Part shown: in pieces, positions 35,683-53,527 of the stretch
How positions within the stretch are numbered: the first letter of the stretch is position 1
Layout: every line of letters starts with the position of its first letter
Source of the DNA: Salinispora arenicola
Lineage (GTDB): Bacteria; Actinomycetota; Actinomycetes; Mycobacteriales; Micromonosporaceae
DNA length: 64,000 bases
Direction of reading: 5' to 3'
Assembly: GCF_006716065.1 (NCBI RefSeq)
Contig: NZ_VFOL01000001.1
Span: forward strand, 310,001-374,000
Made by a program: the position numbers and the translations under genes
Notes under the pieces: model-generated
What the model saw: only the letters and a program-made list of their open reading frames with translations
What the model was told of the DNA's origin: nothing
Databases searched by the model: none

Positions 35683-35775
35683 TTTCGTTTCGTGTCGTTT
35701 CGACGCAGGTAATCAACGCGGCGGCGGAAGGGGACCCGCACAGTGCGGACTCTGACAGCCTGCGAAGGAGCAGAC

Positions 35776-35979: not shown

Positions 35980-35995
35980 TCCACATCCCGTAGGC

Positions 35996-36023
35996 GGCGG
36001 CCCGACTGATTCAGCGGGCCGCC
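35996..36023 (+). terminator. Terminator of the cold-shock gene
   Basis: 9-bp stem GGCGGCCCG / CGGGCCGCC (35996-36004 with 36015-36023), 16 nt past the stop. Confidence 0.8.
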
Positions 36024-36140
36024 GTTCCGCGTCCCATGCGCATAGGGGTGCCGGCAACGAACGTGCCACCAGTCGCCAAGCAGTCGATCTTCCATGTGGG
36101 TGGTGCGCGACGGGTGGCGGGGCAGCCAGGATGACCGCTC

Positions 36141-36571: not shown

Positions 36572-36654
36572 ATGCCCACTCCACGCGCCGGCGTCCTCGT
36601 CGGCTACGGCCGCGTCTCTACCCGAGAACAAACCTCACCCGCACAAATCCGCCC
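36572..36654 (+). pseudogene. Serine resolvase N-terminal remnant
   Basis: LVGYGRVSTREQ is the nucleophile strand of TnpR-type serine recombinases, with the catalytic Ser in RVST. Homology ends within 20 residues, where IS256 sequence starts on the opposite strand. Probably the resolvase of the same Tn3 element. Confidence 0.7.
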
Positions 36655-36972
36655 TCACCACAGCCGGCCGGGCCGGTGCTGTCGGTCCAGCACCGTCCTC
36701 GACCGGGTCCCGTTAGGGATGTTGCCCGAGCCGGCGCCGTCGGGTTCGTGTTCGGCACAGCCGAGGCGATCGGTCATCTCCTCGTTCAGCGCGGCCTCCA
36801 GGACCGTCTTGGTCAACTGCTTGAGCAGCCCGGCCGGGCCAGTCAGGGACAGCCCTTGATCCTTGGCGGCCCGGACCAGCTCAGCGGCAGCCTTCGCCTC
36901 CGCCGACAGGTCGGGCCGCTTCTTGCCTGCGGTCCGGTCGTTCAGTGTCGCCAGGGAACTGGGACGCTTCAT
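36655..36972 (-). pseudogene. IS256 family transposase N-terminal remnant
   Basis: ATG 36972 follows GGAGGG. LSLTGPAGLLKQLTKTVLEA, ALNEEMTDRLG and GSGNIPNGTRSRTVL are the conserved N terminus of IS256-type transposases. The frame leaves homology at about 36688, and the DDE domain is missing. Confidence 0.85.
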
Positions 36973-37128
36973 GGGGACCCTCCACGCCCGGACAGGCATC
37001 TGCCGGCAGCTACGTCATCGCACCGCCCTAATATTTAACTATTAACTATTTATGCCCAGAATATCCGTTCCGCGCTGGCCGCACAAAGCGTACGGAGGTC
37101 TCAGAACAAGGAAGACATTTTCGTATAA

Positions 37129-38532: not shown

Positions 38533-38539
38533 CCGGCCT

Positions 38540-38567
38540 TCGCCGCTGTCCGGACAGCCAGCGGCGA
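38540..38567. terminator. Bidirectional terminator between MFS and gpgS
   Basis: TCGCCGCT (38540-38547) pairs with AGCGGCGA (38560-38567); the loop contains a further small palindrome TGTCCGGACA. Confidence 0.7.
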
Positions 38568-38595
38568 TTCCACGGTCGGGGTGTTGGCGCCGCCA

Positions 38596-39600
38596 CTACC
38601 GGCGCGGCACCAGGTGTCGCAACTCCTGCAGGGGTGCCCGTTCCTGCACCGAAACGTCGTTGACGACGATCTCCCGGTCGAGGTTGGGCAGTTCCTCCGA
38701 GTCGCCGCGGCGGAACTGGGCCAGCAGGGTAGCTGGACTGGTGCCCGGGACGGCCCAGCCCTGCTGCTGCAACCGGGCCCAGACGGTGTGCATGATCTGT
38801 GCGGACATCCGGCCCAACGCCTCGGTGTCCTGGTGGCGGTGCTTCCGGATGCCGAGGTCAACCTGGGACAGCGCGTCCAGGCCGACCAGTTCCAGCAGGT
38901 CAACCAGCATGGCCGTCTCCACCCCGTAGCCGGTGATGAACGGCAGCTGTTCCAGCACCTGACGTCGACCTGCGTATTCGCCGGCCAGGGGTTGCACGAA
39001 GCCGGCCAGCTCCGGCCAGAACATGTTCAACAGCGGCCGGACCATCAGCTCCGTCACCCGCCCGCCTTCGTTGTCCTCCTCGGGGCCAGACTGACCTTCC
39101 AACGGTCGGTGGTAGAAGCCCTTCACGAAATCGATCGACGGGTGGGTAAGCAACGGGCCGAGCAGGCCACGTACGAAGTGCGGCCGGAATTCGCGCAGGT
39201 CAGCGTCGACGAAGGCGACGAGGTTACCGTCGGTGGCGGCTAGGCCGGCCCAGAGCGCGTCGCCCTTGCCGGTCAGTCGGGGCAGGCCCTGGGTCACTTC
39301 GTCCTGGCTGACCACCTCCGCGCCGGCGGCCCGGGCCACCTCCGCGGTGCGGTCGGTGGACCGGGAGTCGACCACGACCAGCTCATCCACGAGGGGAACC
39401 TGCTCCATCAGGTGTTCGCGGATCGTCGAGACGATCGGCCCGGTTGTCGCCTCCTCGTTGTAGGCGGGTAGCACCACGCTGACCCTGTTCTCCCCCTTCG
39501 CCTCCATCAGCCGCTCGGTGTGCCAATCCTGCGCCGATGACGTCCGAGACTTGGTCCATGCGTCGACAACCGGTGAGACGGTCGGTTCTGTATCCCGCAC
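38596..39600 (-). CDS. gpgS: Glucosyl-3-phosphoglycerate synthase
   Basis: 334 residues, GT81 family size. VSVVLPAYNEEATTG binds UDP, DELVVVDSRSTDRT and AFVDADLREFRPHFVRGLLGPLL carry the metal-binding DAD motif, and FITGYGVETAMLVDLLE with LGIRKHRHQ is the GpgS acceptor region. It makes glucosyl-3-phosphoglycerate from UDP- or GDP-glucose and 3-phosphoglycerate, first step towards methylglucose lipopolysaccharide or glucosylglycerate. GTG 39600 is chosen because six Gs lie 5 nt upstream; a GTG two codons earlier is possible. Confidence 0.92.
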   Translation of the reverse strand: MRDTEPTVSPVVDAWTKSRTSSAQDWHTERLMEAKGENRVSVVLPAYNEEATTGPIVSTIREHLMEQVPLVDELVVVDSRSTDRTAEVARAAGAEVVSQDEVTQGLPRLTGKGDALWAGLAATDGNLVAFVDADLREFRPHFVRGLLGPLLTHPSIDFVKGFYHRPLEGQSGPEEDNEGGRVTELMVRPLLNMFWPELAGFVQPLAGEYAGRRQVLEQLPFITGYGVETAMLVDLLELVGLDALSQVDLGIRKHRHQDTEALGRMSAQIMHTVWARLQQQGWAVPGTSPATLLAQFRRGDSEELPNLDREIVVNDVSVQERAPLQELRHLVPRR

Positions 39601-39799
39601 TGGCACCCCCCGAATTCTGGCAGAACGCGCGGATGGACTTCCCTTTCGTGGGTCGAGTTAACCCGCGCGGCGCAGGGGCGGAACAGGCGAGGTGGCCCGT
39701 CGTGTTGCGGGGGGTATCACCGTCGCCGCGGGCTAGCTAGACGATCACACCACCCGGTGGGTGCGCTGGCGCACGAGGCTCCCCGCTGCCGACTCTGGT

Positions 39800-40000
39800 C
39801 AGACCGAAACCGCCCGGCGTACGTGTTCGTCCAGGTACGCCTCAGGCCGGCGCCAGCAGGTCTCGATCGTGGGAGCCGGTGCCAGCACCGACGTTCAGCA
39901 CCGTACGGGCGTCGCGGCACGTCGCCCGCCGAGTAGGCCCCGGTGTCCGCCACGGTCCGCGTGGACGGCTGCGGGAGGCCGACTCGTCGTAGTGATCAGG
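39800..40000 (-). pseudogene. SAM methyltransferase remnant
   Basis: One frame gives DARTVLNVGAGTGSHDRDLL, with the SAM motif I of class I methyltransferases. The C-terminal piece AYLDEHVRRAVSV lies in a second frame and ends in a stop at about 39800. Little else survives between 39601 and 40150. Confidence 0.65.
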
Positions 40001-40153
40001 TGTGCGGACGGTTATGCCGGGCGGTTCGGCCGCTTGTCCCTCAGTCAGATGATGCTCCACGGTATCGACCATGTGACATACCGCTGGGTGAGGGGCAAGC
40101 GCTGTCTAACCGACAGCCGCCGAAGGAAGCCGTCGCAGAGGGCCACGTGGGGG

Positions 40154-40183
40154 CTGACTCGGAGTGGCCACTTTGGGTAGGGT
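40154..40183 (+). promoter_or_regulatory. Probable promoter of the FtsK operon
   Basis: CTGACT (40154-40159), 18-nt spacer, TAGGGT (40178-40183), close to the actinobacterial housekeeping consensus. If correct, transcription starts near 40190, so the gene must start at TTG 40224 or GTG 40233 rather than GTG 40164. Confidence 0.5.
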
Positions 40184-40223
40184 CTGCGCGAGTAGCCGTG
40201 ATCGGTGGGCTGGGGGACGTGCG

Positions 40224-42851
40224 TTGGAGTCGGTGGCGTCAGCGTTCGGTCGGGCGGTGGCGGCGCACCGGGAGGCCGTCTCTCACATCGAGGCTGCTCG
40301 GGCAAGGCTGCGCGACCGCACCGCGGGAGATGGCGTCTCGGAGCAGACTCGCGAGGAAGCGCGACGTTTCGCGGCTCGGATGCGGCGGCTCGCCGAAGGG
40401 CTGACACCAGGGTGGCTCGGTTGCCGACTGGACGGGCCGGCCGCGGACCTTCCCACCGGCGTCGACGCGACGCTGGGGCGTCCGATGCCGGTTCGCCTGG
40501 GTGACGCGACGCCGGTGGCGGGGAGTGGGTTCAGCGTCGTGGCGCCGTTCGTGGGCGCCGGTCACTTGGCGGTCGACAGCGACGCCCGCGATCCGGCGGT
40601 GGCGTGCTGGCTGCGCGGGGTACTGCTGCGGGTGTTGGCAGCATTGCCGGACGGCGCGCTTCAGGTTGCGGCTGTTGATGGGGCGACCCTCGGGACGGTG
40701 TTCGGCCCGTTCCGCGAGATGGTGGAGGCGGAGGCGTGGCCGCGTCCGGCGATCGACCTGCCGGGGTTCCAGCAGGTGCTGGCCGAGGCGGAGGAGCGGA
40801 TCGAGCGCGCCCAGGGCGGCGAGCCGGATCCTTCGGTGCTGCTGGTGTGCGTGGCGGCGATGCCGGAGGGCACCGGGCGCAGGGAGTGGTCCCGGCTGTC
40901 GGCGATCGCGCACGCGGGGCCGGCTGCCGGGGTGTTCCTGTTGCTTGCCGGCTACCCGCCGCCGCAGCACCCGGGCGGGCTGAACACGGCACCGCGCCTG
41001 GAGGGCACCACCCAGCTGACGGCGGTGGACGGAGGATCGTTCACGGTGTCCGACCCGCCGGGGCAACACCGGTTCAGCTCGGACGGCTCGGGGTTGGCGG
41101 TGCCGATGCGGTTGGACGCAGGCCCCCCGGACGCCTTGGTGGAGGTGGTCTGCCGGCGGCTGGCGAAGTCGGCTCGGGTGCAGACGGCAACGGACTTCAT
41201 GATGCTGATGCCGGACGAGATCTGGCAGCAGTCGTCGATCGACGGACTGCGGACGGTGGTGGGCCGGGAGGGGCGTAACGAGTGCGTGCTGGCGCTGGAT
41301 GACGTTACGCCGCACTGGTTGGTGGGGGGGCGCACCGGTTCGGGTAAGACGGTGTTTCTCCTTGACGTGCTCTACGGCCTGGCGTCGCGCTACTCGCCGG
41401 ACGAGTTGTCGCTCTACCTGCTGGACTTCAAGGAGGGCGTGTCGTTCGCGGAGTTCACCCCGACGGCGGTGGACCCGTCGTGGATCCCGCACGCCCACAC
41501 GGTCGGCATCGAGTCCGATCGGGAGTACGGGCTGGCGGTGTTGCGGACGCTGTCACGGGAGATGACGCGCCGGGCGACCGAGTTGAAGCGGGCCGGAGTG
41601 ACCAAACTGGCCGACCTGCGTACCGGGCGACCGGATGTGGCGATGCCTCGACTGCTGGCGGTCATCGACGAGTTCCATGTGCTGTTCGAGGGCAACGACG
41701 CGGTGGCCCAACAGGCGGTGGCGCTCCTTGAGGAGCTGGCGCGTAAGGGCCGCTCGTACGGCGTCCACCTGATCCTGGCGTCGCAGACGATCTCCGGGGT
41801 GGAGGCGCTCTTCACCAAGACCGACTCTATTTTCGGACAGTTTCCGCTGCGGGTCGCCCTCGCTGGTGGCGGCGGTGTCCTCGATCAGCTCAACGACGGT
41901 GCGGACAGCCTGCCCATCGGCGGGGCGGTGATCAATTCGGCGGCCGGCATTCCGGGGGCAAACCGGGTCATCCGTTTCCCCAACGCCGACGTGGGGTCGG
42001 TGGCCGCGCAGCGGCAGCTGCTGTGGGCCGCCCGCCGACCGGGTAGCGCCCCGCCGATGGTGTTCGCGGGCTACGCGGAGCAACATCCCGACCAGGATCC
42101 CACCTTCGTGTCCCTGACGCCCGACGTACGGCGGCGACGGGCCCTGGTCGGCCGGGCCGTGGCCGTCGGCCTGCCCACCGCGGGTTTCACCCTGGACGCA
42201 ACCCCGGGAAGCCACCTGGCGGTACTGGGCACCTCACCGGTCGGGGCCGACGTCCTCTATGCGGCCACCGCCAGCTTGGCCCGCCAACACGCGCCCGGCA
42301 CCGCCCGGTTCCTCCTCGCGCCGCTGGTCCCCGCCGCCGATGATGCCTCCGACGCCACCGTCGAGGCGATCGCCGCCGCCGGCCATCCGCACGAGACGAT
42401 CAGCGCAGCCCAGCTCCGAACGCGGCTGGCGGAGTTGGCTCCGGCGACCGGGGCCGGCAGCGGGCCGACGACCCATCTAGTGATTTTCGGGGCGGACATC
42501 GCCAGCAGCCTGTTGACCACCGCCGACCCCACCACCTACCGCTCCGGACACGACGATCTGCGGGATGTGCTGGCCAACGGGCCCACCCACGGTGTCCACC
42601 TGCTCGGCTGGTGGCGGTCCGTGAGCCGGTTCACCAACGATCTCGGGCCCACCGGCGGTAACGAGGTCGCCTGCCTCGTCGCCCTCAACCTTCCCAGCAA
42701 CGAGGTCGGAGCCCTGCTCGGCGACTACGCGTCGGAGTGGCGGTCCCGCCCGAACCGTGCGCTGCTGATCGATCGGCATGACAACCGCCGCGCCCTCATC
42801 GTCCCCTACATGCGCCCCGGCACCCTCGACCAGATCGACGAGTACGCATGA
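40224..42851 (+). CDS. FtsK/SpoIIIE-type ATPase, EccC-like, soluble
   Basis: 875 residues from TTG 40224. Parts: coiled coil (about 5-55); a degenerate ATPase-like module (about 80-320) without Walker motifs; a canonical FtsK module with Walker A GRTGSGKT (R370-T376) and Walker B VIDEF (480-484), plus SYGVHLILASQ; and a third module (about 650-875) whose P-loop is degenerate (GTSPVGAD). Three stacked ATPase modules recall EccC of type VII secretion, but there the first or all are active and membrane helices are present; here no membrane helix is seen. ATGA overlap with the next, membrane gene suggests that protein supplies the anchor. Function unproven. Confidence 0.8.
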   Translation: MESVASAFGRAVAAHREAVSHIEAARARLRDRTAGDGVSEQTREEARRFAARMRRLAEGLTPGWLGCRLDGPAADLPTGVDATLGRPMPVRLGDATPVAGSGFSVVAPFVGAGHLAVDSDARDPAVACWLRGVLLRVLAALPDGALQVAAVDGATLGTVFGPFREMVEAEAWPRPAIDLPGFQQVLAEAEERIERAQGGEPDPSVLLVCVAAMPEGTGRREWSRLSAIAHAGPAAGVFLLLAGYPPPQHPGGLNTAPRLEGTTQLTAVDGGSFTVSDPPGQHRFSSDGSGLAVPMRLDAGPPDALVEVVCRRLAKSARVQTATDFMMLMPDEIWQQSSIDGLRTVVGREGRNECVLALDDVTPHWLVGGRTGSGKTVFLLDVLYGLASRYSPDELSLYLLDFKEGVSFAEFTPTAVDPSWIPHAHTVGIESDREYGLAVLRTLSREMTRRATELKRAGVTKLADLRTGRPDVAMPRLLAVIDEFHVLFEGNDAVAQQAVALLEELARKGRSYGVHLILASQTISGVEALFTKTDSIFGQFPLRVALAGGGGVLDQLNDGADSLPIGGAVINSAAGIPGANRVIRFPNADVGSVAAQRQLLWAARRPGSAPPMVFAGYAEQHPDQDPTFVSLTPDVRRRRALVGRAVAVGLPTAGFTLDATPGSHLAVLGTSPVGADVLYAATASLARQHAPGTARFLLAPLVPAADDASDATVEAIAAAGHPHETISAAQLRTRLAELAPATGAGSGPTTHLVIFGADIASSLLTTADPTTYRSGHDDLRDVLANGPTHGVHLLGWWRSVSRFTNDLGPTGGNEVACLVALNLPSNEVGALLGDYASEWRSRPNRALLIDRHDNRRALIVPYMRPGTLDQIDEYA

Positions 42852-43522
42852 GCGATCCTTCCGGCACTCCACTGCCCCGCGACGGCGGTTGGGCCGCCTA
42901 CACCGATCACTCCCGTCGCCTGTCCGCCCTCCTGAAGGACGAACGCGCCCGTGCCGAGCGGCGGGCCGCCGCCAGCCGCGACGGGCTGACCGCCGTTGAC
43001 CGACTCACCCACCGGGTGGCATCCCAACGGCAGCACCTGCACCAACTCGCCGTCACCCTGCGCCTGCCCGAACCTCAGGTAGGCGGGATCGCGCCCGGAC
43101 CCATATCCGACCCGGCCGAGGCTCTGCGTCGGGCAGCAACAGCCGCCGACGCCGCCGACGCAGCCGCGGAGAACGCCCACCGGCGGGCCGCCCAGCCGCC
43201 GCTGTTGCCGGGGCTCACGCCGCTGGCCCGCAACTCCCTCGTCTACGCCACCGCGGCGATACTCGGCAGCTTCGCGTCGCTGCTGATGTTCGTCATCAGC
43301 CCCGACACGAATTTCGGGCACATCCCGTGGCAGCTCGTGCCCTGGTCGCTGTGTGGGCTGCCCGCGCTGGCATTCTTCGCCGGCTACCTCACGATCAGTC
43401 TCGCCGGGCAGCCCCGCATCGCGGGTGGTGGCGGCACCCGATCGGCTCGGGCCGGCGGCGTGATCTGTTTCGTCGGCATGCCGATCTTGTGGTTCATCTT
43501 CATCGCCGCGACCCGCGGCTGA
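42848..43522 (+). CDS. Coiled-coil membrane protein, partner of the FtsK-type ATPase
   Basis: 224 residues. A charged, helical N-terminal half (about 1-115) with an Ala-rich coiled coil, followed by three hydrophobic helices (about 130-150, 160-182, 198-217). ATG 42848 overlaps the ATPase stop by 4 nt. No family recognised. Co-transcription and topology suggest the membrane anchor of the ATPase, much as EccC's own helices or EccB/EccE serve in ESX systems (inference). Confidence 0.7.
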   Translation: MSDPSGTPLPRDGGWAAYTDHSRRLSALLKDERARAERRAAASRDGLTAVDRLTHRVASQRQHLHQLAVTLRLPEPQVGGIAPGPISDPAEALRRAATAADAADAAAENAHRRAAQPPLLPGLTPLARNSLVYATAAILGSFASLLMFVISPDTNFGHIPWQLVPWSLCGLPALAFFAGYLTISLAGQPRIAGGGGTRSARAGGVICFVGMPILWFIFIAATRG

Positions 43523-43584
43523 CAGCGGACGCACCTGCCACCAAGGACAGCGCGTTGGACACCACATTCAGGGAGGAACATCCA

Positions 43585-43845
43585 ATGGCCACCATCGGAG
43601 ACATCAAGGCGGGTCTGACGCACGGCAAGTCCGAAGCCGACAAGGCCCTCGCCCAGCTCGCCGGCGTCAACGCCCAGGTCGACAAGGCCATCGCCGTGCT
43701 CCAGGCGCTCGCCGCCGGCACCCAGCAGCCCGCCGTCATGAGCGCCATCGGCCAGCTCAGCGCCGCCAAGCAGAAGTTCGGTGAGGGTGCCGGCCTGATC
43801 CAGGCCGCCGTCGCACAGACCGAGAAGTACAACGCGATCCTCTGA
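43585..43845 (+). CDS. 86-residue helical-hairpin protein (DUF6244-like, WXG100-sized)
   Basis: Ala/Gln/Lys-rich. Helix one (about 4-42), a turn at AAGTQQPAV, helix two (about 50-84). Size and hairpin design match WXG100/ESAT-6 proteins, although no W-x-G is present; the turn reads AGT. GGGAGG precedes ATG 43585; 62 nt after the membrane gene. I recall it as the DUF6244 kind of small actinobacterial protein. Candidate substrate or structural subunit of the ATPase system (inference). Confidence 0.7.
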   Translation: MATIGDIKAGLTHGKSEADKALAQLAGVNAQVDKAIAVLQALAAGTQQPAVMSAIGQLSAAKQKFGEGAGLIQAAVAQTEKYNAIL

Positions 43846-44267
43846 TCCCCGCGACCTGCTGCCGTGTGGTGCTGCGCGTGCAGCGGCAGCATGGCCCACG
43901 CGGCGGCCCCGCCCGGTGACCAGTCGCCCTTTGGCTCTGCCACGGGTTGGTATGCCGCCGAAACGACCGCGACGCGCTGGCCGTCGCACAACTGATCGAC
44001 TCACCGGCCCGCCCGAGGCGGTGCCGTCCCACCCCGACTCGCGCGGCCACTGCGGCAATCGGGTCGGTTCCTTGCTCTGGGATGCAACCGGTCCTACGCT
44101 CGCCACACGGCGGGCGACCCTCGGTGATCATCTCCGTCCACAACCTGATCGCGGTGACGAGAAGCCGGCCACCGCGAAACGTCCGTGACACGCCACAATT
44201 TGATCGCGGCAGACCAGGGCCCCTGAAGCCCTAACAGAATCATGTTCGCCGGGTTGGGAGTAATCGC
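43846..44267. other. Non-coding stretch
   Basis: About 420 nt with no supported gene. It separates the ATPase operon from the DUF4239 gene; no terminator of good quality was found. Confidence 0.45.
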
Positions 44268-45050
44268 ATGTGGAGCTGGAATCACCTTGCGCCTGGCTGG
44301 CTACTCTTCCTCATGTTCCTAGCGGTTGCCATTGGCTTTGGCGCATTAGGTGTCTGGTTGCTGCGCGGACGCGCCAAGCGACTGTCCGAGGCCGAGCCCA
44401 AATGGCTGGACCTGATCACCCACACGATCACGGTCACCGGCACTCTCTACGCACTCCTGCTCGTCCTGACCGCCTTACAGGTGTACGGAACGTACTCCCA
44501 AGCCAGCCTTGCAGTCGCCACTGAGGCAGCGGAGCTGAATGCCCTCCACAGTGTCGTGTCCGAGTACCCGGAGCCCACTCGAAGCAAACTCCAGGGAGAG
44601 TTGCGAGAATATGTCGACTTCATGGCTAACGAGGCGTGGCCAGCCTACCGGCGAGGTGACAACGTGGAGGGTGACCGTCAGCTGGCCGAACAGCTGTCGA
44701 AGACACTCCTGAGCTTCGATCCGACTTCCGAGAGGGAAGAGCGATTGAACAGCCTTGCCCTGACGGAATTCAACAAGTTGAGCGAGGCTCGTCAGATCCG
44801 ACACACGTTCGCCACCGCAGCGCTCCCCACCACACTCTGGTTCACACTGTTGATCGGCGCGGCGATCATCATCATCCTGTCCTGCCTCATTCCGACCCGA
44901 ACGCGTCGGGCTTCCCTGGTCCTTGTCTGCGCGGTCGCAAGCATGATCGCACTGCTGACATTCATCATCGAACGGGTGGATAATCCCTTCAGGGGGTCGA
45001 TGAACGTGTCCGCCGGGCCCTACGTGGAGGCGGGCAAGAACATGCGTTAG
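44268..45050 (+). CDS. DUF4239 (bestrophin-like) membrane protein
   Basis: 260 residues. Two N-terminal helices (about 10-31, 48-69), a long helical soluble segment with ATEAAELNALHSVVSEYPEP, and two C-terminal helices (about 183-205, 212-235). The order and the T..A..EA..L segment fit DUF4239. GGGAG lies 7 nt before ATG 44268. No partner gene is obvious. Ion-channel function has been suggested for relatives only by similarity. Confidence 0.8.
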   Translation: MWSWNHLAPGWLLFLMFLAVAIGFGALGVWLLRGRAKRLSEAEPKWLDLITHTITVTGTLYALLLVLTALQVYGTYSQASLAVATEAAELNALHSVVSEYPEPTRSKLQGELREYVDFMANEAWPAYRRGDNVEGDRQLAEQLSKTLLSFDPTSEREERLNSLALTEFNKLSEARQIRHTFATAALPTTLWFTLLIGAAIIIILSCLIPTRTRRASLVLVCAVASMIALLTFIIERVDNPFRGSMNVSAGPYVEAGKNMR

Positions 45051-45475
45051 CCCGCATTGATCTTCAATCTACATTGATCAGGGTACGGAACAGCAGCGCG
45101 GGCGCCGCCGATGAGCCGTCGACCACACGGGCAGTGCTCACCGACCAGCTTCACGGGGGCGAAGCGCGTGCACCGGCACGGCGCAAACGCGCCTTCCTCA
45201 TCCCGAAAGCCGCCCGACTGCCCTTCACACCCCGTGGCCCCGTCTTCCGACTACGGTGACGGCAATCCGCCGATGGCACGCGGCAACACCGCCCGGATCG
45301 CGGCATGTGTGTGCACACGGGGTGTACGGCTGATCAGCGCCTTTTACTTGGCGTTGCCGGTTGGCGCCTGATTGGCGCAACTGCTTTCCTGGCGAGACTC
45401 GGATCTCGGGGCGAAAATCGCTCAGCACTCGCCGGCGGTGAGGTGCTATCGTGCCGCTGCTTGAGAGGAGAGGTC
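45051..45475. other. Non-coding stretch with likely promoter
   Basis: About 425 nt without a supported gene. A TATCGT (45447-45452) shortly before the next gene may be its -10; the -35 is not clear. Confidence 0.4.
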
Positions 45476-46207
45476 GTGCCGAGGCTCAACCAGATCATCG
45501 CGGTGGAGAAGGGCATCAAAAGCAAGTCGTTCGCGGACTTGACTGAGGCGCACCACGCCGTGCAGAAAACCACTCCGCTGGCAGGTATCTCGCGTACCTA
45601 CCAGCCAAAGGACGAGGAAGGCGAGCAACTGCCGGCCGAGTCGACGCGGGTGCAGATCAAGGCTGAGGACATCCTGCGGCAGGTTTCGACAACACTCACT
45701 CGCCTTTTTGACGTGACGGCCACCAAAGACTGGACCAACTGTGTGGCGCACGCCGACATCGTGGTCGACGGTCAGACTGTCGCCAGTGAGGTGCCGGTCA
45801 CATACCTGTTGTTTCTTGAGAAGCAGCTCGTTGACTTGCACACCTTCGTCAAGAAACTGCCGGTTCTTGACGCCGCCGAGTCGTGGGTACGTGACGAGTC
45901 CACCGACAGTTGGCGGACCGAGTCAGTGCGCACCATCCGGACCAAGAAGGTCCCGCGCAACCACGTGAAGGCCGAGGCCACCGACAAGCACCCGGCCCAG
46001 GTTGAGGTCTACTACGAGGATGTGGCCGTCGGCTACTGGACGACGGTGAAGTTCTCCGGAGCGCTGCCAGCCAAGCGGGTCAACGAGATCCTCGATCGTG
46101 TCGTGAAGCTGCAGACCGCAGTCAAGTTCGCGCGGGAGGAAGCCAACAACACCGATGCCGTTGATCGGCGGATAGGCGCGGCGGTTTTCGGCTACCTGTT
46201 CGGGTAG
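45476..46207 (+). CDS. Conserved protein of unknown function linked to Y-like RNAs
   Basis: 243 residues from GTG 45476, which follows GAGAGGAGAGG. Soluble, alpha/beta. Striking, probably family-wide blocks are LNQIIAVEKGIKSKSF, PVTYLLFLEKQLVDLHTFVKKLPVLD, RTKKVPRNHVKAEATDKHPAQ and AVFGYLFG. It resembles a protein found in actinobacteria and their phages (I recall it as DUF7873), with no known activity. The two tRNA-like RNAs begin about 55 nt past its stop, on the same strand, so an RNA-related role such as binding, processing or repair is plausible (inference). Confidence 0.75.
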   Translation: MPRLNQIIAVEKGIKSKSFADLTEAHHAVQKTTPLAGISRTYQPKDEEGEQLPAESTRVQIKAEDILRQVSTTLTRLFDVTATKDWTNCVAHADIVVDGQTVASEVPVTYLLFLEKQLVDLHTFVKKLPVLDAAESWVRDESTDSWRTESVRTIRTKKVPRNHVKAEATDKHPAQVEVYYEDVAVGYWTTVKFSGALPAKRVNEILDRVVKLQTAVKFAREEANNTDAVDRRIGAAVFGYLFG

Positions 46208-46261
46208 CCGTCTCAGGTTCCCTGTGGGAGCGCAGGGGTGCGCCGAAGGGCGCAAAGGCTG

Positions 46262-46375
46262 AAGCTGAAGCCGAAGCTGACGAACGTGGCCCAGTGCAGG
46301 TTCGACCCCTGCCCCCGGCGCTTGTCGGGCCGGGGTAGCCCAACCGGCAGAGGCAGCCACGGTCAAGCTCAGACT
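46262..46375 (+). ncRNA. Y-RNA-like, permuted tRNA-like RNA 1
   Basis: Read 5' to 3': GACGAACG (46279-46286) in a bulged stem, then CGTGGC (46285-46290), CCAGT, the T arm GCAGG-TTCGACC-CCTGC (46296-46312), acceptor half CCCCGGC (46313-46319), 9-nt loop, acceptor half GCCGGGG (46329-46335), TA, a D arm (GCC, CAACCGGCAGA, GGC; 46338-46354), A, and GCCACG (46356-46361). The last pairs with CGTGGC as the anticodon-stem equivalent; outside it AGCT (46275-46278) pairs with AGCT (46366-46369). This is a tRNA with joined ends and opened anticodon loop, the YrlA layout. Confidence 0.75.
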
Positions 46376-46405
46376 ATCGCTCCAACTTCAGTATTCGTCA
46401 CCGAA

Positions 46406-46541
46406 CACCAGGTCGAACGGATGTGGACGCTGATCGTCGGATGCTGGTTCAAGTCCGGCTCGCCGCTCCAACATGCGGCGATAGTTTAACGGTAAAACCC
46501 GACGTTGTAACGAATGATCCACATCCTTAAACGTGCTGGTG
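46406..46541 (+). ncRNA. Y-RNA-like, permuted tRNA-like RNA 2 (with CCA)
   Basis: Outer stem CACCAG (46406-46411) with CTGGTG (46536-46541); internal loop holding GTCGAACG (46412-46419) against TTAAACGTG; stem GGATGTGGA (46419-46427) with TCCACATCC (46518-46526); then CGTCGG (46435-46440) with CCGACG (46499-46504). Inside lie the T arm GCTGG-TTCAAGT-CCGGC, acceptor TCGCCGC (46460-46466) with GCGGCGA (46475-46481) closed by the loop TCCAACAT, TA, and D arm GTTT-AACGGTA-AAAC. All pairs are perfect except one T-stem G-U. It is a complete permuted tRNA body; even CCA is present, in the loop. Confidence 0.82.
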
Positions 46542-46562
46542 TGTGCAAATCGGCGGCAACCC

Positions 46563-46595
46563 GAGGCCCGGGGATTGGACATATCCCCGGGCCTC
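46563..46595 (+). terminator. Terminator after the tRNA-like RNAs
   Basis: Perfect 13-bp stem GAGGCCCGGGGAT / ATCCCCGGGCCTC (46563-46575 with 46583-46595), 7-nt loop. It would end both RNAs and separates them from the convergent eccB gene. Confidence 0.9.
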
Positions 46596-46672
46596 ACCAC
46601 GCGAGGCGCAACCCAACCGCTGGTAGTGAACATTCGAGTAGTGGTCAGTGCCTGACATTCTGTTATCGCTCA

Positions 46673-48091
46673 TCAGGGTGACGAACCCTCCGTTCGGGCC
46701 GCCTGCGGATTCAGGGCCGGGCCGGTGGTGAACATCGCCAACACCGTGGTCGGCACCGGCACCCGCGGGGCCTGCGCATATCCGAGAGCGGCGACGACCT
46801 CCTCTCCCGCGAGGGGATACTTCACCCCGATCTCGTTAATCAAATACAGCGTGCCGGATTCCACCCCCGGTGCTGGCTGCCCCACCACCAACGCCCCACC
46901 GCTGGGCGGCACCTGCACCCGATCAGCCAGCCGACCATCCTCAGGTGGACCAGTGGCGACAAGCCGTGCCGCGGCTACCCGACCCGCCGGCACAGTCACC
47001 AGCCGCCCCGCCGCTCCCCGATCTCCGTCGAAGGACAACTCGACACACAGGCCCCTAGCTCCGTCCAACCCTTCCACCGGACGGGGCGGCGTACGGGGGT
47101 GCTTTCCCGAGACCGCCACCGTCGCCCCGGGCGCGAGCGCCACGGCGGCCGCATTGATCGGTCGAGGGCCATCGGGATTGAGCTGTGCTATGCGTTGGTC
47201 GGCCAACAGGAGCGCCACCTGGGTGGCGGTGATCGGGGCCAGGCCGTCACGGCGCATCAGGTAGTACTCTTCGGTGTCGCCGGCCATTCGCACCGTGAAG
47301 ACCTGCCCCACCTTGGTGGACTTGCCACCGAGTGGCACCCCCGCCGCACCATGCCCGGTGACCTCCGGCGCGACGAGGTCAGGGCCGGCGGCCAACGCGT
47401 TGAGCCAGGCGGCCGACACCGGCATCGGTGTCACGCTCCGATAGCCCAGCGCCACCAACGCACGATGGTCCCGGATCCGCATGCGCCGATCTCGCCACGC
47501 CAGGTACGTCTGCCCACCAGCGCTGACCAGCACGCCGTGTTCTTCGGGTACCCGTTCCACCGGCCCACCCTGGTCGAGGCTCACGACCAGTCCCGGCCGA
47601 TCAGGCAGACCTGGCACCGGATCCGTTGCGGCAGTGCACACCAGCCAGGGGCCGCTACTCAGGCTGTCCTTGTCTGGCAGGGCGTCAGGGGCTCCGGGTA
47701 TGCCGATCGGACGCCCGTGCGGCACTGTCGCCAGCGAGGCCCGCGAAACGATCCGTACTGTCGCACGGTCGTCGGAGACCGCCAGCAGTGCCGAGCTGTA
47801 GTTGAGCACCGGCCGCAGCATGTCGTCAAGGTAGAGGTAACGGGTGCCGGTCTCTCGTTCAACAATGATCGAACCAGGTTCCTGCCAGGCGGTGCTGCGA
47901 CCACCGGCGACCATGCCGTAGACGCCGAAACCGGCGGTGGCCAACAGGGCGAGGACGAGGCCGATCATGCCCCCCACCCGGCTTCGGCGCATCGGCCGTT
48001 CCCACACATCAGGGTCGCCGCCCACCAGCGCAGAAACCAGCCGGTCAGACACGAACTGGTGTGCGTGGAGTCGGTCACGGGTGTCTGGCAT
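46673..48091 (-). CDS. eccB: Type VII secretion protein EccB
   Basis: 472 residues. The cytoplasmic N terminus (RDRLHAHQFVSDRLVSALVGGDPD) is the family signature, followed by one membrane helix (about 40-62) and a large extracellular domain with repeated beta modules (for example GYRSVTPMPVSAAWLNALAAGPDL). Two conserved cysteines (PWLVCTA, ARGLCVEL) suit the EccB disulfide. Last gene of the leftward ESX operon, 6 nt after eccD. Part of the membrane complex with EccC and EccD. Confidence 0.95.
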   Translation of the reverse strand: MPDTRDRLHAHQFVSDRLVSALVGGDPDVWERPMRRSRVGGMIGLVLALLATAGFGVYGMVAGGRSTAWQEPGSIIVERETGTRYLYLDDMLRPVLNYSSALLAVSDDRATVRIVSRASLATVPHGRPIGIPGAPDALPDKDSLSSGPWLVCTAATDPVPGLPDRPGLVVSLDQGGPVERVPEEHGVLVSAGGQTYLAWRDRRMRIRDHRALVALGYRSVTPMPVSAAWLNALAAGPDLVAPEVTGHGAAGVPLGGKSTKVGQVFTVRMAGDTEEYYLMRRDGLAPITATQVALLLADQRIAQLNPDGPRPINAAAVALAPGATVAVSGKHPRTPPRPVEGLDGARGLCVELSFDGDRGAAGRLVTVPAGRVAAARLVATGPPEDGRLADRVQVPPSGGALVVGQPAPGVESGTLYLINEIGVKYPLAGEEVVAALGYAQAPRVPVPTTVLAMFTTGPALNPQAARTEGSSP

Positions 48092-48097
48092 CGTTGA

Positions 48098-49516
48098 TCA
48101 ACCACCCAGTCCGCGTACCCGGGCGTAGACGCCCAGCACGGCAAGTGCCAACGGAGCTATGGCGATCGCAGCCAGTGTCTCCAGAACGTCGGCCGACCGG
48201 CCCCACCACGGCGACGAGCGGTGTGGCGGCAGGTGGTGCACCACGGCGACGATGGCACCGACACAGACCGCTCCCACCGTCAGCAGTGCGCTGCGGGCTG
48301 AGGCGTCCGCACGGGCTGCCAGCGCCAGCGCGAGCAGGAGCAGACCGACCGCGCCGGGCACGGCGGTGGCGAGCCGTTGCCAGGCGTTCACCAGTGTCCG
48401 CGCGCGCAGCAGCAGCGCCAGGCTGAGCACGACGACGAACGATGTCGGGGCCCACCCCGCGTCGGTGGAAAGCGCCACCAGGGCCGCCACCACGGCGGCA
48501 CCAGCGGCGGCGAACAACGCCGACAGGTACCGGTCGGCGACGACCGTACGGGACCGCACCAGGTCCTCGGGGATTGGGTCGATGTCCTGTTGGAGTTCCT
48601 CGGCTGTGGTCGGAAGCCGCGGCGGGCGCAGGCGGGCCACTCGGACAGCCACGGTAGGGCTGGCCACGCCGGTGAAGTAGGCGAGGCTGGCCACGATCAC
48701 CGCCGCACCGACCCCACTCGTCCTCATCGCGACGATGAGGACACCTGCGAGCACGGCGTATCCAGCGGCAACCGCCATCCCGACGAACAGTGGCCGCGCA
48801 ACCGCCACCGCGAGCGCCACCACTGTCGCGGTCGCGGTGGCCGCCGCCCCGGCGGCCATCAGCTGGGTGCCGTTCCAGGCGTCGGCACCGGCCGCGAAAG
48901 GCACCGATGCTCCGGCCAGTCCGGCGAACGGCACCGCCGCAATCCCGAGCAGGACGCCGACGCCCCCGTCGCCGAGTGCGCGGGAGCTGGTGCCACTCGC
49001 GGCGACGAGGAACAGGGCGACGCCTGCCGCGGCTCCCACGCGCCACCCCGCCGGAGCAGGAAGCAGCAGGCCGATGAGCATCCCCGCCAGCACCATCACG
49101 GTCAGGCCCAGCAGGAGTCGGCGGGTGTACCCCGGATGCCAGGCGTCCGGCCGGTCTCGAATCACCGCCCCGACACCATCCACGACGTCGTCCACGTCAA
49201 TGGGCGGCAGCGGATCCTCGCTGGGCCGCAGGTACAGCACGTCGCCGTCCCGTAGCCCCAACGCGGCTGGGGTACGGTCCTCGTCGAGGGCCCTCTCGCC
49301 GAGGCGTTGCAACACGTACGTGGCGGTGGCGCCGCTACCGGTCAGTGCAGGGTCAACGTGGCGGACCACCAGCGGGAGTACCTCGGCCATCGGTGTGTCG
49401 ACCGGCACCGCGAGGTCAACGCGTCCCGCCGCGGTGTCGATGGTGATCCGGCACACGTCCCCCGCCGTCGCGGCTGGCGGCGCAACGGCAACCATACCGC
49501 CGTCGATACCCGTCAT
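48098..49516 (-). CDS. eccD: Type VII secretion channel protein EccD
   Basis: 472 residues. N-terminal ubiquitin-like domain (about 20-105; CRITIDTAAGRVDLAVPVDTPMAEVLPLVV ... DGDVLYLRP), then about 11 membrane helices. ATG 49516 overlaps the eccC stop by 4 nt. The longer open frame to 49879 reads antisense into eccC and is not used. EccD forms the hydrophobic membrane barrel of the ESX complex. Confidence 0.95.
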   Translation of the reverse strand: MTGIDGGMVAVAPPAATAGDVCRITIDTAAGRVDLAVPVDTPMAEVLPLVVRHVDPALTGSGATATYVLQRLGERALDEDRTPAALGLRDGDVLYLRPSEDPLPPIDVDDVVDGVGAVIRDRPDAWHPGYTRRLLLGLTVMVLAGMLIGLLLPAPAGWRVGAAAGVALFLVAASGTSSRALGDGGVGVLLGIAAVPFAGLAGASVPFAAGADAWNGTQLMAAGAAATATATVVALAVAVARPLFVGMAVAAGYAVLAGVLIVAMRTSGVGAAVIVASLAYFTGVASPTVAVRVARLRPPRLPTTAEELQQDIDPIPEDLVRSRTVVADRYLSALFAAAGAAVVAALVALSTDAGWAPTSFVVVLSLALLLRARTLVNAWQRLATAVPGAVGLLLLALALAARADASARSALLTVGAVCVGAIVAVVHHLPPHRSSPWWGRSADVLETLAAIAIAPLALAVLGVYARVRGLGG

Positions 49517-52500
49517 CAGGTCGTCTCCAGATCTGTCGGGGGCACTTCGGCCGTCTGCAGCACCTGGATGCCGCGTCGGGTCACCAACTGGGCTCGGCCG
49601 GGTGGGAGCTGCCGGGGCATGGCATCGCCGAGGAATTTGCCCTCCTCGCGGGCACAGGACAGCAGGAGACCGGGGCAGGCGAGCTCCCAGATTCGCCGCA
49701 ACGTCGGGTCCATCATCGCCCGCATCCCACCTGAGCTGCTGCGTGCCACGACAAGGTGTAGGCCGATGTCGGCTCCTTTGGCCAGCAGTTCGACAAGGGA
49801 GTCCAGCGGACCGGGCAGGCCACCAGCGAGCAGGTCGTAGTCGTCCACGAGAAGGAACACCCGGGGGCCGGTCCACCAATCGCGACGACGCAGCTGGTCC
49901 GGTGTGATGTCCGGGCCGGGTAGCCGGCGGCGCATCGAGACCATGGTGTTGCCGGCCAGCGTCGTGACCGCCTCGACGTCGGCTGCGTAACCGACGCGGT
50001 ACTCCTCCGGAATGTACGGGTACAGCGTCACCTGTGGGTCGGCCAACGCGATGCGGGCCTCGCTCGGCTCGTAGCGCCGGACGATTCCCTCGGCGACCAG
50101 TCGGAGCACGTTGGTCTTACCGGACTGTCCATCGCCGAAGACAAGCAGGTGGGGGCTCCTGGCGAAATCGTGCCACACGGGTTCGAGCCGTTGCTCGTCC
50201 CAGCCAAGAGCCAGGCGGAGATCGCCCTCGGGCGGCGGCAGTGCAGCGACCGGAAGCGTGGGGGGCAGTAGCCGTACAGGTGGTGCGGGCTGGCCTGGCC
50301 AGGCGTCGGCGATGTCCTCGACCAGATGTCTCAGCGCCGTCGAGGCGTCCAGGTCGGGGAGGCAACCGTCGGTGCGCGGCACGGCCGCCAGGAAGTGCAG
50401 GCTCTCGGTGGTGATGCCTCGACCGGGCTGCGCGGGAACCCCGGCTGCGACCCGCGACCGTACCTCGGACTCAAGCGGGTCACCCAGTCGTAGCTCGAAC
50501 CGCGTACCGATCAGGTCCCGTAGCCAGGGTCGAATCTCCGACCATCGGGCGGCAGTGATGACCAGGTGGATTCCGTAGCCGATGCCTCGGGAGGCCAGTT
50601 CCGACAGCTTCGGCTCCAGGTCCTCGAACTCCTGCCGCAGCGTGAACCAGCCGTCCACGACGAGGAAGACATCCCCGTACGGGTCCTCCACCGTTCCAAC
50701 GTGCCGAGCCCTCCGCCAGCCCGCCATCGACTCGACGTCGTGATCGGCGAAGAGCTGCTCGCGTCGTTCCAGGAGCGCTTCGAGCTCGGCGACGGTCCGG
50801 CGAACCCGGTCGGGGGCGAGGCGGGTGGCGGTCGACCCGACATGTGGGAGCCCGGCCACACCGGTTAGCGTTCCGCCGCCGAAGTCCAGACAGTAGAACT
50901 GAACCTCGGCCGGCGTGTGCGTCAGCGCCAGTCCGACCATCAGTGTCCGCAGCATGGTGCTCTTACCGCTCTGTGGGGCACCGACGATGCCCACGTGCCC
51001 CGCAGCGCCGCCGAGATCAGCGACAAGCAGGTCCCGCATCTGGTCGAACGGGCGATCCACCACGCCGACCGGCGCCCGCAGCCGACCTCGATCGGGCCAG
51101 CACTGAGCGGTCATGCCACGCACCGCCTCGACCCCGATGCCAGGTAGGAGCTGACCCAGTGTCGGGGACTCGCCGAGCGGCGCCAACCACACCTCGCGAG
51201 CCCTCGGGCCCTGGTCGCGCAGTCCTTCGATCAGCACTGCCATGAGGCTGGGCACGGGCGCGGTCACGGCTGCGGACGTTGGCGATTCCGGTTCCGTGGC
51301 CCCGGCGACTGGTGACGGCGCGGAACGGACATCAAACGCGGTGATCTGCCGGCGGACCGCACCAGCAGGTGTGGGGTTTCCGGTTGTCGGGCACGGGCCG
51401 GAGACGTAGCCCGCCTTGAACCGGACGAGGGCGCTCGTATCCAACTTGGCATAGCCGTGGCCCGGGCTGGACGGCAGCTCGTACGCGGCGCCGGAACCGA
51501 TCACGCTCCGGCTCTCCGAGGCGGAGAAGGTACGCAGCGCGATCCGGTACGACAGGTGGCTTTCCAGCTGGTGAATGCGGCCCTCGTCGAGACGCTGCGA
51601 GGCGAGGAGCAGGTGCACTCCCAGGCTGCGTCCCAGTCGCCCGATGGTGACGAACAGCTCCATGAACTCGGGCTTGCTGCCGAGCAGCTCGCTGAACTCG
51701 TCAACCACGACAAGCAGCGTGGGCATCGACTCCAGCGGGGCGCCTTCGGCGCGGACCGTCTCGTACTCCAACCGGGAGCTGACCCCGGCCTGGCGCAGCA
51801 GCTTCTGCCGGCGGATCATCTCGCCGTGCAGCGAGTCCTGCATCCGGTCGACGAGCACGAGTTCGTCAGCCAGGTTTGTGATCACCGCTGAGGTATGCGG
51901 CAGCTCTTCCATGCCCAGGAACGTGGCGCCGCCCTTGAAGTCGGTCAACACGAAGTTGAGCGACTCTGAGGAATGGGTCGCGGCCAGCGCCACGACCAGC
52001 GTGCGTAGCAACTCGCTCTTGCCGGAGCCGGTGGCGCCGATCAACACACCGTGCGGCCCGTTACCGCCCTGGGCGGACTCACGGAGGTCAAGGGAGACGA
52101 TGTCGCCGTCCGGCCCGATCCCGATCGGTACCCGTAGGTCACCCCAGTCGGACGACTCCCACAGCGCGTGCACGTCGTAGCTGTGTGGGTCACCGATGCC
52201 GAGCAGCCGGGTCAGATCGAACTCGGTGGCCATCGGTACGGACGCGTCCACCCCGCCGCCCGTACGGTATGGCGCGAGAAGCCGGGCCAGAGCCTGGGCA
52301 CGGACACCGCTGAGCCCGTCGACCCGACACCGCCGGTCGGGGTGGGCATGCTGCTGGACGGTCACCTGGTCCGCTTCGACGCGAAGCTGGAGGACCTGTG
52401 GGCCGTCGAGCGCGTTGGCGCCCCCGATGTCGAGAAGCACCGTGTTGCGCAGGCCACCCACGATGAGCGGTGAGTCGTCGGGCAGTGCCACGCCATCGCA

Positions 52501-53454
52501 GACGATGACCAGGAAAGGCTCGGTAGGGCTGGCGGATGCCTGGGCGGTGAACTGCGGACGGGCCAGCATCCGGTGGCCGAGCACGCCGATGAGTTCGTGG
52601 TAGTCGTCGGCAAACAGCCGCACGTCGCCGGCCGCGTCAGAGCGGGTGGGATGCCCGGTGTGCGGCAGCCACTTCGCCCAGGTCCACTCGGCCATCCTCG
52701 CCGGATCGGCGAGGATGGCGACGCGCAGTTCCTCCGGCGCGTGCAGCGCCGCCAGATGCGCCAGCACCGCACGGCTGAGACTCAGCACGCCGAGGTCGTC
52801 GCCGACCAGTTCCACGCCGGCGAAGCCCGGGAGGTGTACCACCGCCGGCACCTCGGTGACGGTTTGGTAGGCACGCATGAACCGCCGTAGCGCGCTTGCG
52901 CAGAGCGGCTCCAGGTCCTCCACCGGCGGGGTTTGTGGGGGCACCAACCGGAGTGCGGCCCGCTGCTCACCCATACCGATGCGAACCTCGGCGAAGTCGT
53001 CGTGGCCCACTCGCCGCTCCCACAGCCGCGGACCCATCGCCACCGCCCACAGCCGTGACGGGTGCGGGTGAGTCCAGCCGACCGCCGTGCGCTGCTGGTT
53101 GGCAGCCCGCCGCACCCGTCGGCGGATCTGCGCCAGATAGCGGAGGTAGTCACGACGATCACCACGCAGCTCCCGCTTACGCTGGCCCGCCCCGCGTCCC
53201 AGCTGGACCAGCACCATGCCGAGGGTGGAGACTCCCATCAGTCCAGAGGCCAGATAGCCGGTGGGACCGACGCCTGGGCTGGCGAACATCAGAACGGTGG
53301 CACCCGAGCCGAGGCCCATCGGTAGGTAGGTCATCGCCGCGGACATGTCGGCGGCCGCCGGCTCCGGAAGCGTCGGCGGCTCCTGGAGTTCGACCTCGCC
53401 GTGGGGCAGCGGAGGCCCTTCACTCCGCGGCGGCCGGCTGATCATGATGCTCAT
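49516..53454 (-). CDS. eccC: Type VII secretion ATPase EccC
   Basis: 1,312 residues, full-length fused EccCa-EccCb. Two N-terminal membrane helices (about 38-85), then three FtsK modules with P-loops GATGSGKS (about 472), GAPQSGKS (about 824) and GDGQSGKT (about 1106). Walker B VVVDEFSELLG follows in the first; the module spacing matches EccC. ATG 53454 follows GGAGGGAG; a longer frame to 53724 overlaps mycP antisense-like sequence and is rejected. Drives export of WXG100-type substrates; 73 nt after mycP. Confidence 0.96.
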   Translation of the reverse strand: MSIMISRPPRSEGPPLPHGEVELQEPPTLPEPAAADMSAAMTYLPMGLGSGATVLMFASPGVGPTGYLASGLMGVSTLGMVLVQLGRGAGQRKRELRGDRRDYLRYLAQIRRRVRRAANQQRTAVGWTHPHPSRLWAVAMGPRLWERRVGHDDFAEVRIGMGEQRAALRLVPPQTPPVEDLEPLCASALRRFMRAYQTVTEVPAVVHLPGFAGVELVGDDLGVLSLSRAVLAHLAALHAPEELRVAILADPARMAEWTWAKWLPHTGHPTRSDAAGDVRLFADDYHELIGVLGHRMLARPQFTAQASASPTEPFLVIVCDGVALPDDSPLIVGGLRNTVLLDIGGANALDGPQVLQLRVEADQVTVQQHAHPDRRCRVDGLSGVRAQALARLLAPYRTGGGVDASVPMATEFDLTRLLGIGDPHSYDVHALWESSDWGDLRVPIGIGPDGDIVSLDLRESAQGGNGPHGVLIGATGSGKSELLRTLVVALAATHSSESLNFVLTDFKGGATFLGMEELPHTSAVITNLADELVLVDRMQDSLHGEMIRRQKLLRQAGVSSRLEYETVRAEGAPLESMPTLLVVVDEFSELLGSKPEFMELFVTIGRLGRSLGVHLLLASQRLDEGRIHQLESHLSYRIALRTFSASESRSVIGSGAAYELPSSPGHGYAKLDTSALVRFKAGYVSGPCPTTGNPTPAGAVRRQITAFDVRSAPSPVAGATEPESPTSAAVTAPVPSLMAVLIEGLRDQGPRAREVWLAPLGESPTLGQLLPGIGVEAVRGMTAQCWPDRGRLRAPVGVVDRPFDQMRDLLVADLGGAAGHVGIVGAPQSGKSTMLRTLMVGLALTHTPAEVQFYCLDFGGGTLTGVAGLPHVGSTATRLAPDRVRRTVAELEALLERREQLFADHDVESMAGWRRARHVGTVEDPYGDVFLVVDGWFTLRQEFEDLEPKLSELASRGIGYGIHLVITAARWSEIRPWLRDLIGTRFELRLGDPLESEVRSRVAAGVPAQPGRGITTESLHFLAAVPRTDGCLPDLDASTALRHLVEDIADAWPGQPAPPVRLLPPTLPVAALPPPEGDLRLALGWDEQRLEPVWHDFARSPHLLVFGDGQSGKTNVLRLVAEGIVRRYEPSEARIALADPQVTLYPYIPEEYRVGYAADVEAVTTLAGNTMVSMRRRLPGPDITPDQLRRRDWWTGPRVFLLVDDYDLLAGGLPGPLDSLVELLAKGADIGLHLVVARSSSGGMRAMMDPTLRRIWELACPGLLLSCAREEGKFLGDAMPRQLPPGRAQLVTRRGIQVLQTAEVPPTDLETT

Positions 53455-53527
53455 CGCATCTCCCTCCGTTGTGGACTCGGCGTGAGCCTCGCCTCTGACC
53501 GGCGATGTCGAGACCCCGCACGGGTCG

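Follow-up and report, generated by a model that had tools for sequence, protein, structure and literature searches.

A DUF7873 Gene Conserved Together with a Predicted Structured RNA That Bears Two Circularly Permuted tRNA-Like Folds

Results

The DUF7873 Gene and Its Surroundings

The window (by which we mean the whole 64,000-nucleotide stretch of Salinispora arenicola DNA that was analyzed) contains a gene whose inferred product matches the Pfam family DUF7873 (PF25283) with a score of 386.5 bits, against a gathering cut-off of 27. Directly downstream lies a conserved region with two tRNA-like folds (Table 1). The protein has many relatives (7378 of 8000 scored candidates), the nearest named one being from Salinispora fenicalii (94%). 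None of known function was detected among PDB sequence profiles (nothing below an E value of 0.059), PHROGs (best E value 0.042), or PADLOC and NCBIfam (no matches), and the name DUF7873 was found in none of the papers searched.

Type VII secretion genes lie beside the gene and RNA on the minus strand (46673-54775). In a genome of the same genus (G013), similarity to the window (82% identity over window positions 46686-49011) starts just 3' of the last hairpin of the RNA, and positions 30000-46686 have no counterpart in the 16.7 kb that precede the homologous stretch. The cassette may therefore sit at the edge of an island; a clean empty site was not found in relatives, the homologous stretch of G013 itself starting at window position 46686. 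Elsewhere in the window there are fragments that by eye look like a resolvase and a transposase (36254-36999). The minus strand also has a 2698-residue frame (55850-63946) in which segments are repeated and PRSEPLPRSEPLP recurs in a run close to the C-terminus, a cobalamin riboswitch (17174-17355), and a tRNA-Lys(TTT) gene (18044-18118).

Table 1. Features of the DUF7873 gene, the adjacent RNA, and neighboring genes (window coordinates)
Feature	Position	Strand	Basis or remark
DUF7873 (PF25283) protein, 243 aa, predicted partner	45476..46207	+	Pfam match; aligned with 58 homologues
Structured non-coding RNA, probably a single one, about 375 nt, ends approximate	46220..46599	+	Conservation in 17 diverse loci; fold z-score
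5' hairpin	46220..46237	+	Alignment and fold; covariation uncounted
Second 5' hairpin (UGCGC/GCGCA)	46239..46254	+	Alignment and fold; covariation uncounted
Domain 1	46258..46392	+	Proposed closure: 46258-46264 with 46386-46392
Permuted tRNA-like fold 1	46285..46361	+	27-sequence alignment
RNA 1 anticodon-type stem	46285-46290/46356-46361	+	
RNA 1 T arm	46296-46312	+	
RNA 1 acceptor	3' strand 46313-46319; 9-nt loop; 5' strand 46329-46335	+	
RNA 1 D arm	46338-46354	+	
Linker motif CUAUCGCUCCAAC	46374..46386	+	Conserved between both domains
Domain 2	46397..46557	+	Helices of 34-sequence alignment 95.6-100% paired, with double changes
Domain 2 helices	46397-46402/46552-46557; 46406-46411/46536-46541; 46419-46427/46518-46526	+	One A-C mismatch here in the first
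Permuted tRNA-like fold 2	46435..46504	+	YrlA match, energy fold, covariation, tertiary positions
RNA 2 anticodon-type stem	46435-46440/46499-46504	+	
RNA 2 T arm	46443-46459	+	
RNA 2 acceptor	3' strand 46460-46466, then TCCA; 5' strand 46475-46481	+	
UCCA of RNA 2	46467..46470	+	Right behind 3' acceptor strand
RNA 2 D arm	46484-46498	+	
UUAAACG motif	46527..46533	+	3' strand of scaffold internal loop
3' hairpin, 13 bp, 7-nt loop of YGGMYAY type	46563..46595	+	
ACCA	46596..46599	+	3' of the 3' hairpin
EccB	46676-48091	-	
Protein with three FtsK/SpoIIIE stretches	49516-53724	-	
Subtilase	53528-54775	-	

Two Permuted tRNA-Like Folds

The original prediction, made from the window alone, placed two circularly permuted tRNA-like folds downstream of the gene, each with the T arm and the 3' acceptor strand preceding the 5' acceptor strand and the D arm. 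Both are present where it placed them, with the anatomy it described, and covariation and the conservation of tRNA tertiary positions strengthen the reading of them as tRNA mimics. The CCA that it saw behind the discriminator of RNA 2 is likewise there, as part of a TCCA; RNA 1 has none. The minimum-energy fold recovered the tRNA-like arms of RNA 2 and gave RNA 1 another structure (with modest z-scores of -1.86 and -1.28 for the two elements), and folding of the longer region likewise left the tRNA-like form of RNA 1 unrecovered, so that RNA 1 depends on comparison. ARAGORN found no ordinary tRNA at the locus of the RNA. A strict descriptor of the fold (T arm, acceptor, loop, acceptor, D arm), which has a background of 0.2 matches per 613 kb of shuffled sequence, matched just 3' of the DUF7873 gene in every locus among those listed. 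The string GNCGAACG occurs twice, starting at 46279 and 46412.

In 115 of 153 loci the descriptor detected a pair of heads with the right spacing. From 89 representatives of these, 57 had a recognizable 3' anchor and 39 were chosen for covariation analysis; the domain 2 alignment holds 34 of the 39 (five divergent viral sequences omitted) and the domain 1 alignment 27 (long-loop members omitted as well), and because of the omitted rows the pair counts are mostly bacterial, with three viral rows in each. The pairs that had been proposed covary in relatives, strongly so in domain 2, where 97.3% of the cells of 41 pairs are paired, 28 of the pairs show double changes, and double-change cells number 226 as compared with 72 in shuffles (slid controls were 38-46% paired); the structure scored was the RNAalifold consensus with the anticodon-type stem added manually. 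In domain 1, for which 20 pairs were chosen by tRNA naming, 96.1% of cells are paired and 10 pairs show double changes, with an invariant D stem and outer anticodon-type pairs that are just 72% paired. RNAalifold alone recovered two arms of domain 1, T and acceptor, and missed the D and anticodon-type stems.

These helices bear on a bolder alternative raised by the original prediction, that the elements are true permuted tRNA genes giving working tRNAs. A full set of tRNA arms and the CCA of RNA 2 are what such genes would have, but in domain 2 long covarying scaffold helices occupy the place of the anticodon loop, which could not be restored by joining the ends. For this reason we regard working permuted tRNAs as very improbable; moreover, no bacterial enzyme for processing permuted tRNA genes is known.

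The tertiary positions of tRNA, which the descriptor left free when elements were scored, are almost invariably present: among 236 unique elements, U8 was found in 234, A14 in 227, U54 in 235, A58 in 234, and the D-loop GG in 233. At the Levitt pair (15-48), 230 of the 236 have A-U or G-C, against a mean of 186 and a maximum of 199 for shuffled controls. It is A-U in 121 of 123 bacterial elements and G-C in none, all 24 G-C pairs being viral; 109 of 113 viral elements fit. Given these signatures, an L-shaped tRNA fold of the heads is very probable. A few of the viral elements in these counts and in the CCA counts below may be tandem tRNA genes.

A discriminator followed by CCA (NCCA) stands 3' of the acceptor in 88 of 243 unique elements, as compared with 0-4 at other offsets (34 of 109 bacterial elements, where 3.3 were expected, and 54 of 134 viral elements, where 2.9 were expected). 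An NCCA also follows the 3' hairpin in 21 of 58 unique hairpins, against 0-2 at other offsets; 15 of these 21 are from Micromonosporaceae. Such ends invite comparison with the permuted two-piece tmRNA, in which the T arm and 3' acceptor strand likewise lie 5' of the 5' acceptor strand and are separated from it by a removable segment. By this reasoning RNase P and 3' trimming would cut the acceptor loops to leave three base-paired pieces with free CCA ends that could be charged. Acceptor loops range from 3 to more than 60 nucleotides in length, yet the NCCA, where present, stands exactly behind the discriminator. However, some of the loops measure only 3-4 nucleotides, and about two thirds of the elements are without CCA; we consider a split tmRNA-like RNA distinctly unlikely. 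Two-piece tmRNA also differs in not having the two full tRNA-like heads seen here, and scans of the window and 15 related loci gave no match to tmRNA (RF00023) at the RNA. Elsewhere at two loci, a tmRNA gene lies near the DUF7873 gene: within a tRNA array in Gordonia phage Phendrix (L177, 2072-2600) and, matching it, on an IMG/VR contig (L148, 384-912).

The Folds Look Like Heads of a Single RNA

The original prediction took the two elements for separate Y-RNA-like RNAs. In an alignment of the regions 3' of the gene from 17 diverse loci, conservation extends throughout, beyond the tRNA-like cores, from about 46220 to 46599, and the two folds look instead like a pair of heads on a single conserved structured RNA some 375 nucleotides long. 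The stretch from 46211 to 46601 (391 nucleotides) has a fold z-score of -5.16, with none of 100 shuffles equally stable. Between and around the heads, three scaffold elements recur among the 115 loci in patterns drafted after viewing the alignment: the linker motif class in 95 (1.6 expected from shuffles), the UUAAACG class in 103 (7.4), and a 3' hairpin whose stem has at least six base pairs and whose loop is of the YGGMYAY class in 78 (1.1). In bacterial domain 2 the string GAUCGAMCG is conserved; it is related to the Ro-type motif.

Both strings of the helix proposed to close domain 1 occur in 71 of the 115 loci, in a search that demanded the cores CUGA and UCA, and its two free positions are paired in 18 of 46 unique cells, against 12.9 in shuffles (33 of 2000 shuffles were as high). 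Because this lends weak support to the closing helix, we infer the single RNA and put it no higher than that. A GAGCG/CGCUC pairing around domain 1 was dropped, since by eye it fails in Micromonosporaceae. A scan of 45100-46720 turned up neither a sigma-70 promoter nor, at the 3' hairpin, a T-tailed terminator.

The RNA Travels with DUF7873

The gene–RNA pair recurs across actinobacteria and in phages. In the best 80 bacterial loci from at least 569 relatives, a looser descriptor placed one or more permuted elements in the 1 kb 3' of the DUF7873 gene in all 80, and two or more in 67; these loci are related to each other and so are not independent events. Among 83 viral loci the end of the gene could be located in 72, and in 68 of these the 1 kb downstream holds one or more elements. 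The looser descriptor gave 31 and 81 matches elsewhere in the genome loci and viral loci, respectively, some of them tandem tRNA genes. A strict anticodon-type stem is present in at least one head at all 80 bacterial loci and at 51 of the 72 viral ones.

We also built a covariance model of domain 2 (R1) from 34 loci, the window's own copy included, and ran it on 95 of the sources; outside this set are, for example, L161-L171 and the majority of the loci behind the model. Of the 94 sources other than the window, 79 gave matches at E ≤ 1e-5. The 15 misses include loci in which the descriptor found elements (L095, L131, L145, L147, L173, L174, L175, L180, L121, L122, and L143) and four in which neither R1 nor the descriptor found one near DUF7873: L118 and its near-copy L119 (3729-4400 in each), L146 (3729-4500), and L179 (4748-5400). 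In a survey of 396 genomes of the phylum, DUF7873 was found in seven, and full-length R1 matches were found in exactly the same seven; 29 further genomes had partial matches only. Among 151 relatives, five besides the window's genome have DUF7873, none of the same genus, and all five have an adjacent R1 match (L003-L007). DNA similarity alone, a less sensitive test, found the region in none of 60 relatives.

Partial matches of this kind at L205 and L210 (from two of the 29 genomes) and at L206 (from the seventh-group genome G512) were rejected as tandem tRNA genes. Such genes, which give partial matches to the Rfam model of YrlA as well, raise the question of whether the folds are accidental pairings of neighboring ordinary tRNA genes. 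No tRNA gene was detected at the window locus, however, and the structure there is full length, with scaffold helices and covariation; the explanation is refuted at the window locus and is extremely improbable in general, a few viral elements perhaps excepted.

DUF7873 is present in 73 phage records, named for Vibrio (29), Gordonia (12), Rhizobium (12), Klebsiella (7), Serratia (6), Arthrobacter (3), Pseudanabaena (2), Rhodococcus (1), and Microcoleus (1). In nine phage records (from Gordonia, Arthrobacter, Vibrio, Rhizobium, Klebsiella, Pseudanabaena, and Microcoleus), at least one head lies 3' of the gene in eight and is absent in that of Microcoleus; the pair is within a tRNA array in three of the nine. 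tRNA genes are near or a few kilobases away in L173, L174, L178, and L180, and none is annotated in the stretch in L176 and L179. A plasmid collection yielded four records with DUF7873, one of which, at 11.9 Mb, is perhaps a chromosome; the gene–RNA pair is carried by Streptomyces plasmid SNP1 (L043).

The same-strand placement of the RNA at a short distance from the gene in scored loci would suit a cis-acting element in the 3' untranslated region that controls DUF7873 mRNA. However, at L158 the RNA comes before the gene, and at L137 the two are on opposite strands with about 1.2 kb between them. Because of these differing arrangements it is evidently a gene of its own at those two loci; its size and the completeness of its tRNA-like parts also go beyond what an untranslated-region element would need. 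We judge such a role improbable.

No other neighbor gene is widely shared. The three largest clusters of neighbors proved to be frames over the DUF7873 gene, over its other strand, and over the gene plus the RNA (in the third, 40 of 59 members lie mainly over the gene or RNA), and the next cluster occurs in 9 of 178 loci. The gene that truly accompanies the RNA is DUF7873, immediately upstream of it.

Relation to Y RNAs and Ro60

Kinship with bacterial Y RNAs (YrlA), as originally proposed, is supported for the permuted tRNA-mimic module and is not supported for partnership with Ro60. The Rfam model of YrlA (RF02553) spans both elements end to end, yet with 27.9 and 24.6 bits it falls below its gathering cut-off of 69; among plausible matches, sub-threshold YrlA was all that an Rfam scan of the window and 15 related loci returned at the RNA. 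These scores are on their own weak evidence, because the tandem ordinary tRNA genes of L205, L206, and L210 reach 32-41 bits. Nor does the cut-off by itself separate the kinds of RNA, because the YrlA-like RNAs of three Streptomyces loci for TROVE, the Ro60 domain (PF05731), miss it too, with best scores per locus of 42.5 (G338), 43.9 (G306), and 56.2 (G253) bits.

The window was noted to lack a Ro60 gene, and that absence extends to the complete 5.63-Mb host genome, in which a TROVE search gave 0 matches. Among the 396 genomes, TROVE was matched in 10, four of which also have DUF7873, and three of the seven genomes with DUF7873 are without a TROVE match. At each of the three Streptomyces loci, where TROVE matches cover just a short part of the profile, the YrlA-like RNA or RNAs lie about 0.9-1.4 kb from the TROVE match. 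In two genomes with both systems (G253 and G306), TROVE and its own Y RNAs are at a separate place from DUF7873.

Y RNAs carry a Ro60-binding motif, GNCGAAN(0-1)G, on their stem. The string GNCGAANG, which had been read as this motif, is indeed in both window RNAs, but the motif occurs in just 6 (RNA 1) and 12 (RNA 2) of the 115 loci, where about 4 were expected for each. The possibility that these are ordinary Y RNAs that bind a Ro60-type protein draws on the shared permuted module, on the conserved GAUCGAMCG, and on tandem pairs of YrlA-like RNAs, below the Rfam cut-off, at two of the TROVE loci (L207, 3337-3660, minus strand; L208, 2086-2400). Set against the distribution of TROVE, the separate Y RNAs that two of the four doubly equipped genomes have at their TROVE loci, and the scarcity of the Ro-type string, we find it hard to credit.

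Discussion

We have found a conserved protein–RNA pair whose RNA, as judged by comparison of sequences, has two permuted tRNA mimics on a conserved scaffold. The explanation that we favor, and consider probable, is that the pair is a mobile two-part cassette that gives rise to a new kind of tRNA-mimic ribonucleoprotein, with DUF7873 as the protein and the long RNA presenting both heads. DUF7873 would most likely bind the scaffold, at the internal loop GAUCGAMCG/CUUAAACG, the linker motif, and the 3' hairpin. The elbow and acceptor features by which tRNA-handling enzymes recognize a tRNA are preserved in the heads; by analogy with YrlA, the heads would therefore be modified like tRNA and would recruit such enzymes or keep them occupied. 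In elements with an NCCA behind the acceptor, a CCA end could become exposed if RNase P and 3' trimming opened the loop. As the weakest step, the particle might shield tRNA functions or stand in for them while a phage infects the cell, for instance by serving as a decoy or platform against tRNA-damaging defenses; a role in infection is suggested by the presence of the cassette in phages, in some of them within tRNA arrays, and a decoy or platform role in phages is our best guess at its function. Counting against this explanation are the scarcity of a full NCCA among the elements, the small share of phage records with the pair inside a tRNA array, the four loci without an element, the failure of the energy fold to recover RNA 1, the stems of domain 1 that the alignment fold missed, the weakly supported closing helix of domain 1, the restriction of G-C Levitt pairs to viral elements, the relatedness of the bacterial loci, the absence of a detected DUF7873 relative of known function, and the viral loci without a strict anticodon-type stem.

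A more elaborate version, which we think unlikely, would combine spread by phages and other mobile DNA with cutting of the RNA by tRNA-maturation enzymes of the cell. The product would be a particle of several pieces, with two (perhaps three) CCA-ended arms held on DUF7873, that acts on tRNA or the translation machinery, perhaps by serving as a decoy for anti-phage tRNA cleavage or by carrying aminoacyl groups.

The closest known relative in design is YrlA with Ro60/Rsr, which shares the permuted module (T, acceptor, and D arms) borne by a longer stem and, at two Streptomyces TROVE loci, the tandem copies; unlike YrlA, the RNA described here has both heads in what is apparently one molecule, other scaffold motifs in which the Ro-type string is uncommon, and DUF7873 in place of Ro60 as the partner gene. 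YrlA is described as an RNA of 90-150 nucleotides that is modified by DusA and TruB and tethers Rsr to PNPase (PMC8394870), and its tRNA-like domain has been suggested as a possible competitive inhibitor of an anticodon nuclease (PMC7790460). Like GOLLD and ROOL, which are described as phage RNAs often near tRNA islands, of unknown function and, in the case of ROOL, without an identified protein partner (PMC12286853), ours is a large structured RNA found in phages; unlike them it is smaller, bears a pair of tRNA heads, and is linked to a protein gene, and no Rfam match to GOLLD or ROOL was found in the window or the 15 related loci. The results of our literature search named no such RNA, and an earlier mention in papers on YrlA or RNA repair, on bioRxiv, or in subscription journals is possible.

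If the explanation is correct, tRNA mimicry by permuted RNAs would extend beyond Ro60 particles to a second protein family, for which no relation to Ro60 was detected and which would have a more elaborate RNA of its own, carried by phages of very different hosts. The large unannotated family DUF7873 would gain a likely function, and the roles of tRNA-mimic RNAs in bacteria and phages would become testable. It would also follow that YrlA-like scores alone are insufficient to call a Y RNA.

Finally, we note a difference between the heads at viral loci such as L131, L141, and L174. In some phages the D arm of head 1 (TGGCGGAATTGGCAGACGC) is like that of tRNA-Leu, and in bacteria it is like another type, whereas head 2 has short D loops. 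The two heads may thus mimic different tRNAs.
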